64,000 bases of DNA from Crocinitomicaceae bacterium (GTDB taxonomy: Bacteria; Bacteroidota; Bacteroidia; Flavobacteriales_D; Crocinitomicaceae): positions 124,001 through 188,000 of the forward strand of contig JAJTCM010000002.1 of assembly GCA_021325675.1 (NCBI GenBank), in the 5' to 3' direction. The notes beneath the pieces were generated by a model. The model worked only from the letters and a program-made list of their open reading frames with translations. It was not told the origin of the DNA and ran no database searches. Within the stretch, counting starts at the first letter, position 1. Every line of letters starts with the position of its first letter. This document shows positions 16,554 through 58,225 of the stretch, piece by piece. Both the position numbers and the translations under genes were made by a program.

Positions 16554-16569
16554 TTTTTGCGGCTTTCGC

Positions 16570-16656
16570 CATTCTATCTTCATTTCCTACGCAGGCATTA
16601 TCCTGATCAGGTCAATGGGTATAATCTCAGCCCCTTGCGGGACACCCCTTTGAGAT
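16570..16656 (-). promoter_or_regulatory. TPP riboswitch (THI element)
   Basis: On the minus strand the conserved blocks appear in order: GGGGTG, then GGGGCTGAGATTATACCC, then ACCTGATCAGGATAATGCC, then GCGTAGGAA. These are the pyrimidine- and diphosphate-sensing cores of the thiamine pyrophosphate aptamer, and flanking ATCT/AGAT can close P1. It controls the TonB receptor starting at 16499. Confidence 0.96.
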
Positions 16657-16660
16657 GGCG

Positions 16661-35731: not shown

Positions 35732-35812
35732 TTTTCTATTTTTTAAGGAAGGGGAACATGAATTAAGGCTTTTCCTTCGATGATCTGATTCCCTTCGCGG
35801 TTATAAACGTGA

Positions 35813-51707: not shown

Positions 51708-54700
51708 CTAATTTTTCTGAACTAGGATTTTCTGTTCGCAAAATTTAATCTTGTCATTCCGGCTGGAAATAAAATACATTCCTGCACTGATCGTCCCCGG
51801 TAAGCTCACGGGCACTTTTCCGGCAGCCTGTCCGAGGGTTTCACTCAGCACCAGGTGACCGTACATATCATGCAGTTCGACAGTAAGTTCCGAAGCGCCG
51901 GGTTCCGTCTCAATAAAAAACTGGTTGCTGCTGATTGGGTTGGGATAAATGCCCACACACTTGTTATCCCGTCCGCAAGGCGCCAGGAATTCCGTGTATA
52001 ACAGCTGCGAAGTACCGTTGAAGTCTGTTTGCCGGAGACGGTAATAAGTTTCCTCCCGAAAATTCGTTTCATCTATATAGGTATACATTCTGGGCTGGGA
52101 TGTTGTTCCTTCCCCTTCGATCCGGGTTACCGCTTCAAAGTTGATCCCATCGTGGCTGCGCTCCAGCGTATAGTAATCGTTATTGGATTGTGAAAGCACC
52201 TCCCAGCTGATGAGCACACCGCTTTCTTCCCGGCACTTCAGATCAAACGAAGCCAGCTCTACCGGAAGCGTGCAGCCCACGAGGACATTGACGGAAGCCT
52301 GGCCGGTACAGCCAAGTGATGTGGTAGCGGTGACCGTATATGTTCTCGGGGTAGTAGTGTTGGTGACCGTATAAGCTGTTGTAGTGCTGCTCAGGTTCGT
52401 TGCCGGCGACCAGGAAAAAGAAGCAATATCGTCGGGCGCATTGAAGGTGATCGACCAGCTCGTGACCGTTCCCGTTGAGCTTGTAATCGCGGTGGGCTTG
52501 CATTTATCAATTACCCGGAGCGTCCACACGCCGTTCACATTTCCGGTTGTGGGAAAAGGATTGTCCGGGCCAAAAGTTCCCGAAATTCCACCGGCTGTTG
52601 GTAAGGCCGCACCGCCTGTAACGATGGTAGCCGCCATGGCAGTTCCCGTTCCGCCGCGGCGATTGACAATCAGGCTGGAAGTCCCGTTCGGGGCAATGAG
52701 GTAAATTTCGTAATCGTTGGTACGGGCGCAGGTCATATTGATTGTAACCGACTGAACCGGGTTGGCCGCTAAAGTTATTGGCGAAGCCCCTCCTACCGTA
52801 ATTGTATTGTTGGCCGTTCCGGCTCCGGTGCAGGACGTATTTCCATCCGGAACAGCAGTGCCAGCTGAAGAGCTGTATGTTTTGGGTGCGCCGGAGCTCG
52901 AAGCCGTGGAAGCAAAGGCATTCAATACTTCGCTCGTTTCTCCCTGGGATGCACAAATTTCTACCGGCGACGGGTTGATCGAAACAGTTGGCAAAGGCGA
53001 CATGGCAACACTGACACTCGAAGTCGCAGCGCAACCTGCCGGTGAGCCGGCCTGGTTGACAGAAACCGTATAAGTAGTCGCTACATTCGGGCTGGCTGAC
53101 GGGGTCCGGGAAGCTGACGTAAATCCAGCCGGGTTGGAAGTCCAGTTGTAGGTAAGCGGTGCAGGGTTTGGTTTGCAGAACCCAAAGATCACGTTCGGAC
53201 GGCGATTGAGAACGGAAACGAAATCCGAAGTACCGCAGCTGCCCGGTGAAAAATTCGTTCCTGAATACCGGTAGCAATTGTAGCCGGGTGAGTTGTAGCG
53301 GCAGAAAGCATAGAAATTCGCTGTTCCGTTTGGCGGGTTATCCTGGGCAGAAGCGCCATTCGGGAAAAACCAGCACACCTGTACCACAATATTTGAAACG
53401 CCGTCCCAGTTATAGGATTGGCTGAAAAAGAAAGGCGTCATTCCTGTCGTTACCTGGACGTTTGTACCGGAATACACCTGGTTCAACCCGGCAACATACG
53501 TTGAAGTTAAGGCCGTAAGAGCAGTGCAGCCCATCGAAATCCGGATATTCGGGTAAATCAGGTTGCTCATCGTTGATCCGCCGCTGGTTTCAATCCGCTG
53601 GATATCGAAAGAGATGGAGTTGATTTGTCCGGCAACGACACCTGCAGCAAGAAGATCGGAAGCCCGGAACAAAATCTGGGAAGTCTGGTAAGCATCGCCG
53701 AAATTCCCGAAAACATTTTCACCTCCCGTATTGTAAGCAATCGTCGTTGTTCCGGTTCCTACCTGCTGTTCATCCGCAACCGTGGTAAAAGGCGTACACG
53801 CAGCCGTTGCATTTACCCCGCAGGTAGTTGGCGGCGGCGCACTGATGGAGCTTTGTGCCGTCAGCTGAACGGGGGAACCCGGACAAACAGTCGTTGCAGC
53901 CGCCAGTGCCGTAGCTGTTGGTGTGATAACGGTTACATTCACTGAAGCGCTGCAGGTTTCTACTCCATTTGTATAGCTTACGGTATAAGTGCTGTTCGAA
54001 GTTGGGTTCACGTTCGCCGTGGCCGGGGAAGATGACGGACCCTGGGCATCATGCGACCAATCGAAGGTATATCCCGGCACATTCAGGTTGATGACCATGT
54101 TATCCAATCCCCAGGCATCGAAACCTGCACCGGATGACTGCGACTGGAACCAGCGGAAAGCCGTGTTGGTTCCCAAAGCCGCCATGGGGATATCGAGACA
54201 ATAACGCGTCCAGCTTGTTAAAGTCGGATCGCTACCGCCATTCGGATCGTAATATTGTAAGGTTTGCCAGGCGCCGCCATTGACCGAATACTGAATGTAA
54301 ACACCTTCTTCCGGTAAGTCAATTCCTTCGCATGGGCTGGCGTTTGCCTGGGTACCGTATTTCATATCAAAACACAAAGTTGCACTAACAGCGTTGCAGG
54401 CTGTCAAATCGTATCCGTTTGTTGTAATAGCACGCGGGGCAGCCACTGTTGTTCCCATCCATAAACTGTAAGCCCCCTCCGATGGCGGGCCTACGCAGGC
54501 ATGTGTTCCTGTTCCGTTTTGTACAGTAGCGCCGTTGGTTGATGCCCAGGGCTGTGTTCCCCCTGCATTGATTGTTCCGTCGTTGAAATTATTATTCAGG
54601 GGTTTACAGCCATCCGCAACTGCCGTTAAGCTTACGGAAGACCCGCAAAAAATAGTAGACGGGTTTGCGTAGGCCGTTACCGGGCATTGGGCGTAAAGCT

Positions 54701-54770
54701 TTTTTCCGGCAGGAAAGAGCGCCAGGAAAATCAACAGGAAGGAAGCAGGGAGTAAATTTCTTGATTTCAT
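51708..54770 (-). CDS. Type IX secretion substrate: multidomain surface protein
   Basis: A 1020-residue secreted protein. In order: signal peptide (to about residue 27); an Ig-like start with cysteines; a carbohydrate/reelin-like region (about 60-235: EEGVYIQYSVNGGAWQTLQY, WTRYCLDIPMAALGTNTAFR, GFDAWGLDNMVI); PKD/Ig-type repeats (GYTFDWSHDAQGPSSSPATA; PLTYNWTSNPAGF); and a proprotein-convertase P-like domain (near 680-770, with TNDYEIYLIAPNG and NPFPTTGNVNGVWTLRVIDK). Another Ig repeat and a fibronectin-like segment come next (VLISWEVLSQSNNDYYTLER). The C-terminal sorting domain is about 945-1020 (GIYPNPISSNQFFIE ... GMYFISSRNDKIKF ... QKILVQKN). The last domain marks export by the type IX system, to which SprA at the window end belongs. 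It is probably an adhesin. Confidence 0.88.
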   Translation of the reverse strand: MKSRNLLPASFLLIFLALFPAGKKLYAQCPVTAYANPSTIFCGSSVSLTAVADGCKPLNNNFNDGTINAGGTQPWASTNGATVQNGTGTHACVGPPSEGAYSLWMGTTVAAPRAITTNGYDLTACNAVSATLCFDMKYGTQANASPCEGIDLPEEGVYIQYSVNGGAWQTLQYYDPNGGSDPTLTSWTRYCLDIPMAALGTNTAFRWFQSQSSGAGFDAWGLDNMVINLNVPGYTFDWSHDAQGPSSSPATANVNPTSNSTYTVSYTNGVETCSASVNVTVITPTATALAAATTVCPGSPVQLTAQSSISAPPPTTCGVNATAACTPFTTVADEQQVGTGTTTIAYNTGGENVFGNFGDAYQTSQILFRASDLLAAGVVAGQINSISFDIQRIETSGGSTMSNLIYPNIRISMGCTALTALTSTYVAGLNQVYSGTNVQVTTGMTPFFFSQSYNWDGVSNIVVQVCWFFPNGASAQDNPPNGTANFYAFCRYNSPGYNCYRYSGTNFSPGSCGTSDFVSVLNRRPNVIFGFCKPNPAPLTYNWTSNPAGFTSASRTPSASPNVATTYTVSVNQAGSPAGCAATSSVSVAMSPLPTVSINPSPVEICASQGETSEVLNAFASTASSSGAPKTYSSSAGTAVPDGNTSCTGAGTANNTITVGGASPITLAANPVQSVTINMTCARTNDYEIYLIAPNGTSSLIVNRRGGTGTAMAATIVTGGAALPTAGGISGTFGPDNPFPTTGNVNGVWTLRVIDKCKPTAITSSTGTVTSWSITFNAPDDIASFSWSPATNLSSTTTAYTVTNTTTPRTYTVTATTSLGCTGQASVNVLVGCTLPVELASFDLKCREESGVLISWEVLSQSNNDYYTLERSHDGINFEAVTRIEGEGTTSQPRMYTYIDETNFREETYYRLRQTDFNGTSQLLYTEFLAPCGRDNKCVGIYPNPISSNQFFIETEPGASELTVELHDMYGHLVLSETLGQAAGKVPVSLPGTISAGMYFISSRNDKIKFCEQKILVQKN

Positions 54771-54774
54771 GGAC

Positions 54775-55263
54775 TCAGAGCGTATTGATTCTTAAATTTC
54801 TTAGGTTGAAATCAGAAAGCTTGCTGTCCGCCTCTCCATGCAGGAAGCGCGAAAAAAGCCGCAAATGGTATTTATTATCATCCCCGCAACTGCCTGAAAT
54901 ACTCTCATTTGGCGGCAGGACAAGGTTAATTTTCAGCTCATCGTTTTCGCCCGAACAATTGTAGCAGCGCTCGCCGTAAACCAGCTCAAGGTCCCAGCTG
55001 ACATGGAGCGTATCGCCTGTCAGGTTGTTCACGCGGAGATAAACTTCTTCTTTGACGATCCCGTCTTCCTTCAGATCACAGATATTGTAACGGTATTCGA
55101 TGGTATAGTTTGCTTGCTCATACAGCTCATTCCAGTCATTGCTTTTTACCTTGGAAGCGGAACCTCCCTGTGAAAAAATGAAAAAGGGCAGGAAAACAGG
55201 AATTAAAAGCAGGGTTTTGCTGTAAAAATGATGCTTATGCCGGGTATTGGTATGTGTTTTCAT
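54775..55263 (-). CDS. Small secreted protein next to the type IX substrate
   Basis: A 162-residue product with an N-terminal basic stretch and signal helix (SKTLLLIPVFLPFFIFSQGG). The rest is a single beta-rich domain with EYRYNICDLKEDGIVKEEVY, WDLELVYGERCYNCSGENDE and ESISGSCGDDNKYHLRLFSR. The four cysteines could form two disulfides. Only four bases separate it from the downstream 1020-residue protein, so they are cotranscribed and may act on the surface together. I do not recognise a family. Confidence 0.72.
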   Translation of the reverse strand: MKTHTNTRHKHHFYSKTLLLIPVFLPFFIFSQGGSASKVKSNDWNELYEQANYTIEYRYNICDLKEDGIVKEEVYLRVNNLTGDTLHVSWDLELVYGERCYNCSGENDELKINLVLPPNESISGSCGDDNKYHLRLFSRFLHGEADSKLSDFNLRNLRINTL

Positions 55264-55453: not shown

Positions 55454-55477
55454 TAAAAAAAGTCCCTTTTCGGGACT
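55454..55477 (-). terminator. Orphan terminator on the minus strand
   Basis: On the minus strand AGTCCC-GAAAA-GGGACT followed by seven T. No annotated gene precedes it on that strand, because uvrD is on the plus strand. It therefore points to a short transcript initiated between 55480 and 55930. Confidence 0.88.
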
Positions 55478-55710
55478 GATTTTAAGCGGGGCTCGCTGTA
55501 TTATTGGGAGAGTTTACAATTTAATCTGCGATAATTAAAGGTTTAAAAATCGTTGAGAGTGAAACTGGCATTTCACTCTCCATGATTTTACCTAACACTT
55601 CACTCTATCGCTAAACACTATGATCTTGAATTTCATCAGACAATTGCTTGTCTTAAAAATTTCGTATTTCATTTTGTCTTTAAAAACACCAGTTTCTATG
55701 TCCTGTTGTT
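55455..55710 (-). ncRNA. Candidate small RNA (about 255 nt)
   Basis: Minus-strand unit bounded by a TATTTTTG box (55724-55717) and the orphan terminator. Inside is a perfect 10-bp hairpin GAGAGTGAAA / TTTCACTCTC (55555-55564 with 55571-55580, six-base loop). A 26-codon frame (55592-55672) is present but may be chance. I could not match it to tmRNA, RNase P RNA, SRP RNA or a known riboswitch. A 6S-type RNA is conceivable but not shown. Confidence 0.5.
55592..55672 (-). CDS. Possible 26-residue peptide inside the candidate RNA
   Basis: ATG at 55672, TAG at 55592. The product MKYEIFKTSNCLMKFKIIVF plus SDRVKC has two cysteines and a basic character. There is no independent support beyond its place 38 bases after the predicted transcript start. 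Confidence 0.15.
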   Translation of the reverse strand: MKYEIFKTSNCLMKFKIIVFSDRVKC

Positions 55711-55716
55711 CTGAAA

Positions 55717-55724
55717 CAAAAATA
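55717..55724 (-). promoter_or_regulatory. -7 box TATTTTTG of the candidate small RNA
   Basis: Fits TAnnTTTG on the minus strand. A TTG lies 23 bases upstream, slightly long spacing. Confidence 0.45.
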
Positions 55725-55926
55725 GAATGCAAAAACAAAACATCTTTCAACTTTCCGATACTTTGCTTTTAATTCGGGGTGATTGGTCAACTTTTAAGGA
55801 TAATCTGCACACAAATACCTCAGCCGTTATAATATCAGGCGATAGTTGGTTTTTCCGGTGCAAAGGACAAGAAGGCTGAAAACAAGAAAATTATCAACAA
55901 AACCGGGCATTTTGGATTTAACTCCG

Positions 55927-55934
55927 TAAATTTG
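55927..55934 (+). promoter_or_regulatory. -7 box TAAATTTG of uvrD, almost leaderless
   Basis: TAAATTTG fits TAnnTTTG and ends five bases before the ATG at 55940, the same arrangement as at pnuC. Confidence 0.5.
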
Positions 55935-55939
55935 CAGCC

Positions 55940-58225
55940 ATGGATTATTTAGACGGATTGAACGCCAGTCAGCGTGTTGCAGTTGAGCACATTGACGGGC
56001 CGATGATGGTGATTGCAGGTGCAGGCTCCGGTAAAACGCGGGTACTCACTTTCCGGATCGCCCACATGATTAACCTGGGCGTTGATCCATTCAATATCCT
56101 GGCTTTGACTTTTACCAACAAAGCGGCGCGCGAAATGAACGAACGGATCCACCAGATTGTGGGCAGCTCAGAATCGCGCAACCTGACAATGGGTACTTTT
56201 CACTCCGTTTTTTCGCGGATCCTGCGCTACAACGCTGAGCGAATCGGTTACCCGACCAATTTTACGATCTACGATACCCAGGATTCGAAAAGCCTGATGA
56301 AAGACATCGTCAAAGAGCTCAATCTCGATGATAAAACATATAAGCCGAGCATGGTCCTCGGACGCATTTCAGCGGCCAAAAACAACCTGATCTCCGCGGA
56401 AGCCTACGCTGAAAACCCGGAGATCCAACTGGAAGATACGCAAAGCCGCCGGCCGGAAATGGCCCGGATTTACAAAGCTTACGTCAACCGCTGTCAAAAA
56501 GCGGGAGCGATGGATTTTGATGACTTACTGTTCCAGACAAACGTGCTCCTGCGTGATTTCCCGGATGTTTTGCAGTATTACCAGCATAAATTCCGCTACA
56601 TTCTTGTGGATGAGTACCAGGATACGAACTATGCGCAGTACCTGATCGTGAAAAAGCTCGCGGCCGTGTTTGAAAACATTTGCGTCGTAGGTGACGATGC
56701 CCAGAGCATCTATTCTTTCCGTGGGGCAAATATCCAGAATATCCTGAACTTCAAAAAGGATTATCCCGATTTCAAATTGTTTAAGCTGGAGCAGAATTAC
56801 CGCAGTACAAAAAGTATCGTGGAAGCTGCCAATTCCGTCATTGCACGCAACCAGGACCAGATTAAAAAAGAAGTCTGGACTGAAAATGAGCTAGGTAAAC
56901 CCATCACGATCCTGCGCACGCTAACCGACAATGAAGAGGGAAAAACAATAGCGAACCGGATTTTTGATATCAAACAGGCAGAAGGGCTGGATTACAAGGA
57001 TTTCGCCATTTTATACCGCACCAACAAGCAATCCCGTTCTTTCGAGGAAGCTCTGCGCAAACTGAACATGCCGTACAAAATTTACGGGGGAATTTCATTC
57101 TACCAGCGCAAGGAAATTAAGGATTTGCTGTCTTACTTTCGATTGGCAGCCAACCCGCGCGACGAGGAAGCCCTGAAACGCGTTATCAATTATCCAAAAC
57201 GCGGAATTGGGAAAACAAGCATTGAAAACATTGTGATCGCGGCAAACCAGTACGACGTTTCGATCTTTGACGTCATTGGGAATTTTGCCCAATATCCTGT
57301 AGCGCTCAACTCAACAACCAAGCAGAAGCTAACGGAATTCGCCACGATGATCCGCAGCTTCAATGCAGAAATCGATAAAAAACCGGCCTACGAGCTGGCC
57401 CATCATATTGCCAAATCTTCAGGCGTGCTTAAGGAGCTGCACAGCGAAAAAGACAAAGGCCCTGAAGAAGTGGAACGCTACCAGAACATCGAGGAATTGC
57501 TCAGCGGTGTGCAGGCTTTTTCTGAAAACAACCGGGAAGATGAGCTGAAAACGCTTTCGGATTTTATGATTGACGTAGCCCTGCTCACGGATGCGGATAA
57601 CGACAAGGAAGAAGACAAGAATAAGATTTCGATGATGACCATCCACTCCAGCAAAGGATTGGAGTTTCCGCACGTTTTTCTCGTTGGCCTGGAGGAAAAT
57701 TTGTTTCCGTCTCAAATGGTGCTGAACTCGCGTTCAGAGCTGGAAGAAGAACGCCGTTTGTTTTACGTGGCAATCACCCGGGCTGAAAAAACCTGCACGA
57801 TTTCCTACGCCGTTTCGCGCTTTGTCTGGGGCAACCTGAACACCTCTGAACCGAGCCGTTTCCTCAGCGAGATCAACAGTGATTTCGTTCAGCAGGAAAA
57901 TGCTTACCAGGAACGCGGCGGCGGACGATCTCTCAGCTCCAACTTCAACCGCACGCCATCGTTCAGTGGCGGCCTGAACCGTCCTTTGGGAAGCCCCCGC
58001 GGGTTAACTTCCCTGAGCCAGGTTAGCAAAAGCGCATCTTCGGGGCAAGCGGCTTCCACCCTTGATCTGAAAGTCGGCTACAACGTGATCCACGAGCGTT
58101 TCGGCAAGGGAAAAATCATTGAAATCAGCGGAACCGGCGACGACAAAAAGGCCACGATCTTTTTCCCGAAAGAAGGAAGTAAAACCTTGTTATTGCGTTT
58201 CGCGAAACTGGAGGTAGTTGAATAG
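55940..58225 (+). CDS. uvrD: UvrD/PcrA-family DNA helicase
   Basis: 3'-5' SF1A helicase for nucleotide-excision and mismatch repair and replication restart, 761 residues. Motif Ia/I is GAGSGKTRVLTFRI (P-loop 27-34). Motif II is VDEYQDTNYAQ (about 223-233), motif III GDDAQSIYSFRGA, motif IV LEQNYRSTKSIVEAAN, motif V MMTIHSSKGLEFPHVFLVGL and motif VI YVAITRAEKTC. The last 50 residues (NVIHERFGKGKIIEISGTGD ... LRFAKLEVVE) are the Tudor-like C-terminal domain that binds RNA polymerase in PcrA. It has its own promoter and is followed by repeat sequence. Confidence 0.96.
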   Translation: MDYLDGLNASQRVAVEHIDGPMMVIAGAGSGKTRVLTFRIAHMINLGVDPFNILALTFTNKAAREMNERIHQIVGSSESRNLTMGTFHSVFSRILRYNAERIGYPTNFTIYDTQDSKSLMKDIVKELNLDDKTYKPSMVLGRISAAKNNLISAEAYAENPEIQLEDTQSRRPEMARIYKAYVNRCQKAGAMDFDDLLFQTNVLLRDFPDVLQYYQHKFRYILVDEYQDTNYAQYLIVKKLAAVFENICVVGDDAQSIYSFRGANIQNILNFKKDYPDFKLFKLEQNYRSTKSIVEAANSVIARNQDQIKKEVWTENELGKPITILRTLTDNEEGKTIANRIFDIKQAEGLDYKDFAILYRTNKQSRSFEEALRKLNMPYKIYGGISFYQRKEIKDLLSYFRLAANPRDEEALKRVINYPKRGIGKTSIENIVIAANQYDVSIFDVIGNFAQYPVALNSTTKQKLTEFATMIRSFNAEIDKKPAYELAHHIAKSSGVLKELHSEKDKGPEEVERYQNIEELLSGVQAFSENNREDELKTLSDFMIDVALLTDADNDKEEDKNKISMMTIHSSKGLEFPHVFLVGLEENLFPSQMVLNSRSELEEERRLFYVAITRAEKTCTISYAVSRFVWGNLNTSEPSRFLSEINSDFVQQENAYQERGGGRSLSSNFNRTPSFSGGLNRPLGSPRGLTSLSQVSKSASSGQAASTLDLKVGYNVIHERFGKGKIIEISGTGDDKKATIFFPKEGSKTLLLRFAKLEVVE

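Follow-up and report, generated by a model that had tools for sequence, protein, structure and literature searches.

A candidate small RNA gene upstream of uvrD in a Crocinitomicaceae bacterium and its likeness to a superfamily of GUUAGGU RNAs

The intergenic region upstream of uvrD in the genome of a Crocinitomicaceae bacterium probably contains, as we conclude with modest confidence, a small RNA gene of about 255 nt on the minus strand. It would extend from a TATTTTTG promoter to an intrinsic terminator at 55461-55477, and it would represent a young, diverged, and lengthened member of a superfamily of sRNAs. The window, i.e., the whole stretch of DNA that was analyzed, comprises 64,000 nt. 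An sRNA gene had already been proposed at this site in the initial annotation. This interpretation is plausible, and it is somewhat strengthened by the likeness of a part of the RNA to a recurring module and by a retained duplicate of the promoter, while the whole RNA was found not to be conserved.

The candidate is located in a 676-nt intergenic stretch between the divergently oriented uvrD gene (55940-58225, plus strand) and a two-gene operon (54775-55263 and 51708-54770). On the uvrD side, TAAATTTG at window positions 55926-55933 (plus strand) ends 6 nt 5' of the uvrD start codon, and therefore leaderless transcription of uvrD may occur. The predicted parts of the candidate are:

55721-55714, minus strand: -7 box (TAnnTTTG) TATTTTTG, read directly from the sequence, in register with the box of the operon, TACCTTTG
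55708-55620, minus strand: 5' domain of the predicted RNA, unique sequence that contains the start of a 26-codon ORF
55619-55545, minus strand: diverged 3' module, assigned by the scores of models R1 and R2 and by a hairpin sequence that recurs only at two sRNA-like loci elsewhere in this genome
55616-55611, minus strand: GTTTAG of the module
55596-55590, minus strand: GTTAGGT of the module
55580-55555, minus strand: internal hairpin GAGAGTGAAA-TGCCAG-TTTCACTCTC
55544-55478, minus strand: 3' extension from the former to the present terminator, with the 3' arm of the predicted long rod; no relative was found
55477-55461, minus strand: intrinsic terminator AGTCCC-GAAAA-GGGACT with a perfect 6-bp stem, followed by a T tract at 55460-55455

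The sequence elements of the initial annotation were all recovered, namely, a perfect minus-strand terminator, a TAnnTTTG box about 250 bases upstream of it, and a strong internal hairpin. It had also been stated that no coding gene precedes the terminator, and indeed the minus strand does not contain an ORF of more than 52 aa between uvrD and the terminator. Under strict criteria, which demand a perfect stem of 6 or more, 4 or more GC pairs, and 6 or more T, two terminators were found in the window, one of which is that of the candidate, versus none in ten dinucleotide-shuffled windows. Under loose criteria 23 terminators were found in the neighborhood of the candidate versus 20.7 expected, and thus only the strict form is informative, because the loose counts match chance. 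The 257-nt RNA has a predicted folding energy of -66.5 kcal/mol, compared to -44.3 +/- 4.1 for shuffled sequences (z = -5.4), and none of 200 shuffles was as good. The predicted fold is a long rod with internal loops. The TAnnTTTG box alone is weak evidence, because the motif occurs 51 times in the window, and a good -33 element is absent at the usual spacing. The combination of a strict terminator, a stable fold, and a retained promoter box speaks in favor of transcription.

The candidate had been described as unlike the common housekeeping RNAs. The comparison with Rfam yielded nothing at the gathering score and, at E-values up to 10, only matches far below it. A search with covariance models including 6S-Flavo (RF01685) had also been suggested. 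The 6S-Flavo model did not match anywhere in the whole genome at E-values up to 10, but this negative result is uninformative for the Crocinitomicaceae, because none of 30 genomes that were searched gives a score as high as its cut-off. At other sites of the window, a TPP riboswitch (16567-16659, minus strand) and an S4-Flavobacteria ribosomal leader (35754-35785, minus strand) scored above the Rfam gathering score.

Conservation in relatives, which had been named as a test of the sRNA proposal, was found only in part. DNA searches were performed with first 59 and then 240 genomes, both including the genome of the window, and the whole RNA did not have a sequence relative in any of the 239 other Crocinitomicaceae genomes. 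The leftover matches were one 30-nt terminator match and one chance match within a coding gene; the latter, a weak blastn match in genome G054, was rejected, because it lies inside a gene that reads as aroA-like in translation. The RNA was also not found beside uvrD in any relative examined, and the neighborhood of uvrD differed in each of them. It should be noted that even the closest genomes are distant, with a UvrD identity of 82% at best, and the conservation test thus spans long distances. The conserved unit is the module and not the whole gene of 255 nt.

The module became apparent from a permissive search of the same genome with the candidate, which gave a short match at C1:316k. This locus (G000:C1:316258-316368; L050, L068) resembles a compact sRNA gene, with a TATATTTG box, followed by AGGTTTAGTTGTAAAAGGTAGGTTAGGTTAGGTT and by the terminator GAGAGTGAAACGCTAGTTTCACTCTTTTTT, and it belongs to a main class that comprises L050, L069-L081, and L105-L149. 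The sRNA-like gene of the main class has a length of about 70 nt, is distributed through the family, with 45 genomes in which it is present, and is characterized by the strongly conserved 5' stretch AGGTTTAGTTGTAAAAGGTAGGTTAGGT and by a promoter box at a fixed distance. The titles of the 45 contigs are mostly Crocinitomicaceae or Flavobacteriales, and apparently all 45 genomes belong to the Crocinitomicaceae. The invariance of the core is partly given by construction, because the 45 were fetched by an exact pattern; in an unselected BLAST search, the core was found to vary in some genera (G021 and G022). In 31 of the 45 distinct members, the distance from the end of the TAnnTTTG box to GTTTAG is exactly 5 or 6 nt, compared to an expectation of 0.008 per locus, and therefore the main-class RNA should start at about AGGTTTAG. 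In the terminator stem the sequence changes while the pairs are mostly kept. Viral contigs did not contain the main-class core. The Crocinitomicaceae sRNA was found in two metagenome bins with the titles Chitinophaga pinensis and Chryseobacterium gleum (L124, L135); these bins coincide with G003 and G018, which were assigned to the genus and family of the window, and the titles are probably wrong.

A covariance model of the main-class RNA retrieved weaker full-length relatives in most Crocinitomicaceae genomes. These form several classes, which differ in their 5' parts and have a common ending that consists of GUUAGGU and a terminator hairpin, often with the loop GCCC. Classes with the same 3' module are represented, with several copies per genome, by L180, L182-L187, L189-L199, and L098. 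Where a box was found, its distance to the module is fixed for each class (4, 8, 42-45, or 72-73 nt), and the TAnnTTTG box is present in 20 of 25 loci of these other classes, versus 2.6 expected in all. When 24 members were aligned, each of the 14 stem pairs showed changes on both sides, and 92.7% of the cells were paired, compared to 71.1% in shuffles; this covariation represents kept structure and not an independent discovery, because the hairpin helped to define the members. GTTAGGT was rejected as a general feature of terminators, as it occurs in only 1 of 114 other terminators of these genomes. The genome of the window contains at least five good members (C1:316k, C6:160k, C10:21k, C1:150.8k, and C7:164.9k). 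A convincing Rfam family was not found for the four members that were scanned, and the literature searched did not contain a relevant paper on sRNAs of Crocinitomicaceae or Fluviicola. The superfamily is widespread in the Crocinitomicaceae and apparently undescribed, and it is more interesting than the candidate itself. By their appearance, its members would be sRNAs that act by base-pairing, in which a conserved stretch lies exposed ahead of the terminator. Four module copies are arranged in tandem in G009 (L194 at 689, 861, 1137, and 1419), and one class adjoins response-regulator-like genes or sits between them in three different genera (L183, L189, and L195).

The candidate resembles the superfamily in its GUUAGGU motif, the spacing, the TAnnTTTG promoter, and a hairpin sequence that is found in two members. 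The hairpin pattern GAGTGARA-N6-TTTCACTC (in the candidate GAGTGAAA-N6-TTTCACTC) was found three times in the same genome when one mismatch was tolerated, and never in 19 other genomes. Besides the candidate, it was found in the terminators of the sRNA-like loci C1:316k and C6:160k, and GTTAGGT is located upstream of the hairpin in all three cases; in the candidate it is followed by the hairpin from 55580 onward. GTTTAG is 36 nt away from the hairpin in the candidate versus 35 nt in C1:316k, and the 36 nt before the hairpin, when anchored and shuffled alone, gave a P of only about 0.03. Model R1 scored the module of the candidate with 22.1 bits. Model R2, from whose construction both the candidate and the operon 3' UTR were excluded and which includes the hairpins of C1:316k and C6:160k, scored it with 25.9 bits (E = 4e-4 for the window, 0.022 for the whole genome), the second best hit in the window after the 3' UTR of the operon (28.8 bits). 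Genome-wide, the R2 score is at the noise level and unconvincing alone, with values of about 25-34 bits, probably chance hits, in genomes of other families. The case is made by the combination of model, hairpin sequence, and spacing; these lines of evidence overlap in part, because R2 holds both hairpins with the same sequence. The intergenic TAnnTTTG box is located 107 nt before the module, compared to 99 nt at L180 of the same genome.

Several features set the candidate apart from the superfamily, namely, a 5' domain of about 100 nt, a second terminator, and a hairpin without a U tract. The hairpin is followed by AACGATTTTT and not directly by T, and the RNA ends at the second terminator. 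Because of the missing U tract the candidate is regarded as a diverged relative and not as a full member. Most likely, the hairpin that had been described as internal is a former terminator that has lost its U tract. The fold differs as well: the rod of the candidate contains part of its GUUAGGU in paired form, a motif that is unpaired in the main-class consensus computed with RNAalifold. The 5' domain has a weak similarity to the locus C1:150.8k.

The promoter and the module of the candidate also have counterparts in the neighboring operon. The features concerned are:

55761-55749 and, as second copy, 55332-55320, minus strand: perfect 13-nt block GTATCGGAAAGTT in the promoters of the candidate and the operon
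55332-55287, minus strand: operon promoter GTATCGGAAAGTT ... TACCTTTG, from the promoter alignment
55263-54775, minus strand: 162-aa ORF, first gene of the operon; a search of 58 other genomes gave relatives in 18
54770-51708, minus strand: 1020-aa secreted protein with a Por secretion-system C-terminal sorting domain (Pfam PF18962, PF01483, PF21471)
51701-51628, minus strand: second module copy of the window, which serves the 1020-aa gene as 3' UTR and as terminator (R2 28.8 bits, E = 9e-5)

The two promoter regions can be aligned over about 140 nt with a score of 36, compared to 15.3 +/- 2.8 for shuffled sequences (0 of 1000 as good), and the -7 boxes are in register. The genome contains only three exact copies of GTATCGGAAAGTT, the third one inside a coding gene, and the block was therefore rejected as a genome-wide regulon motif. 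An 11-nt complementarity between AGGUAAAAUCA of the candidate and UGAUUUUACCU of the operon promoter lies upstream of the expected start site. The module copy of the operon begins directly after the stop codon of the 1020-aa gene, and its alignment with the module of the candidate has a score of 23.5 versus 9.5 +/- 1.8 (0 of 1000 shuffles). The 3' UTR of this gene might itself give rise to a 3'-UTR-derived sRNA. Neither the 5' domain nor the 3' part of the candidate gave a significant alignment with the operon. The idea that the 5' domain is a relic of the C-terminus of the secreted protein was rejected, because it could not be aligned significantly to the end of the gene for the 1020-aa protein and a Pfam match was absent. 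These comparisons lead to the view that the candidate combines a neighbor-like promoter, a 5' domain of its own, a 3'-UTR-like module with an sRNA-like hairpin, and a new terminator.

If the candidate is an sRNA gene, transcription would be driven by the TATTTTTG promoter and would start about 6 nt past the box. Because the module has lost its U tract, RNA polymerase would run on to the newer terminator 80 nt further. The most likely function of the RNA would be the regulation of mRNAs by base-pairing, and its expression would be tied to that of the secreted-protein operon via the common promoter element. The module could serve as a putative docking site for an RNA-binding protein, e.g., one of the two proteins with RRM_1 matches that are encoded in the genome. 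The presence of RRM proteins alone proves nothing, because they are also present in G005, in which a convincing member was not found. As GUUAGGU is partly paired in the predicted fold, the candidate may have lost or changed such an interaction.

The strongest rival explanation, which we nevertheless regard as unlikely, is that the locus is the ghost of a partial tandem duplication, by which the promoter and the 3' UTR module of the operon were copied without the coding part, and which is decaying, perhaps transcribed, and devoid of a role. The promoter and the module both resemble those of the operon, each at a level not reached in 1000 shuffles, and both the lost U tract and the missing conservation in relatives would be in agreement with decay. 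However, the 5' domain is unlike the coding end of the operon, the 3' part is unlike the sequence beyond the UTR, and the hairpin sequence matches C1:316k and C6:160k and not the hairpin of the UTR. In addition, a strict terminator and a fold with a z-score of -5.4 would not be expected for a decayed piece of DNA. Improbable to a higher degree is a 5' leader with an attenuator, in which the terminator would decide about read-through into the operon (54775-55263 and 51708-54770). The operon is encoded on the same strand with its start codon 191 nt past the terminator, the two promoters are alike, and the hairpins are strong, but the operon has its own TACCTTTG box past the terminator, about 24 nt before the start codon. 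Furthermore, known riboswitches or leaders did not match, and a convincing module was not found near relatives of the first operon gene (L232-L240).

It is very improbable that the transcript is a short mRNA for a 26-aa peptide or a dual-function RNA. An ATG-started open frame of 26 codons, MKYEIFKTSNCLMKFKIIVFSDRVKC, is present at 55672-55592 on the minus strand, but an ORF of this size is expected by chance, the 52-aa frame that contains it does not have a Pfam match, and homologous DNA is absent from the 239 other genomes. Hardly credible at all is an unrecognized 6S RNA that binds RNA polymerase. The long rod with internal loops would fit, and the 6S-Flavo model did not detect any 6S RNA in the Crocinitomicaceae genomes, but a housekeeping RNA should be conserved, in contrast to the absence of the candidate from all 239 other genomes.

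Beyond the candidate sRNA gene itself, a wider reading is tentatively put forward, namely, that it is part of a multicopy sRNA regulon that is undescribed so far and typical of the Crocinitomicaceae, with several classes, one of them strongly conserved across the family, with one 3' docking module, and with a common RNA-binding partner, for which the sRNA and the 3' end of the secreted-protein mRNA would compete. Crocinitomicaceae are common in fresh water and sea water. Post-transcriptional control in Bacteroidota is just beginning to be understood, with Bacteroides as the main object of study. Provided that the superfamily is real and that it is expressed, the Crocinitomicaceae would gain a set of regulators with a common 3' end and a strongly conserved seed-like stretch, and an entry to their RNA-binding protein and targets. 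This could open a layer of gene control that has so far not been studied in this family. The candidate might offer a snapshot of a new member that is just arising, with a copied promoter, a copied module, and a new terminator.

Three known systems invite comparison. The candidate and 6S-Flavo (RF01685) have a long rod-like fold in common, but the candidate differs in that its genome does not contain a match to the model and in its lack of conservation. Rfp18 of Flavobacterium psychrophilum, a species of a related family, is a structured intergenic sRNA that is linked to secreted metalloproteases and conserved across the genus (PMC9723704). The candidate is likewise intergenic, with a predicted structure and a secreted-protein operon as neighbor, but it is not conserved. 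FopS of Bacteroides thetaiotaomicron is a paralogous sRNA family with 14 members, one of them 3'-UTR derived; RbpB, an RRM protein, binds the members, and these act as repressors of SusC-type transporters (PMC11697453). The RNAs described here belong to another bacterial family, the candidate is longer (255 nt) and has a partly paired GUUAGGU, and the likeness is one of architecture. Like FopS, the superfamily is multicopy, occurs in the same phylum, and has canonical promoters as well as a conserved stretch that is single-stranded and lies on the 5' side of an intrinsic terminator (PMC11697453), and the parallel extends to the 3'-UTR-derived module copy in the window and to the RRM proteins of the same genome.
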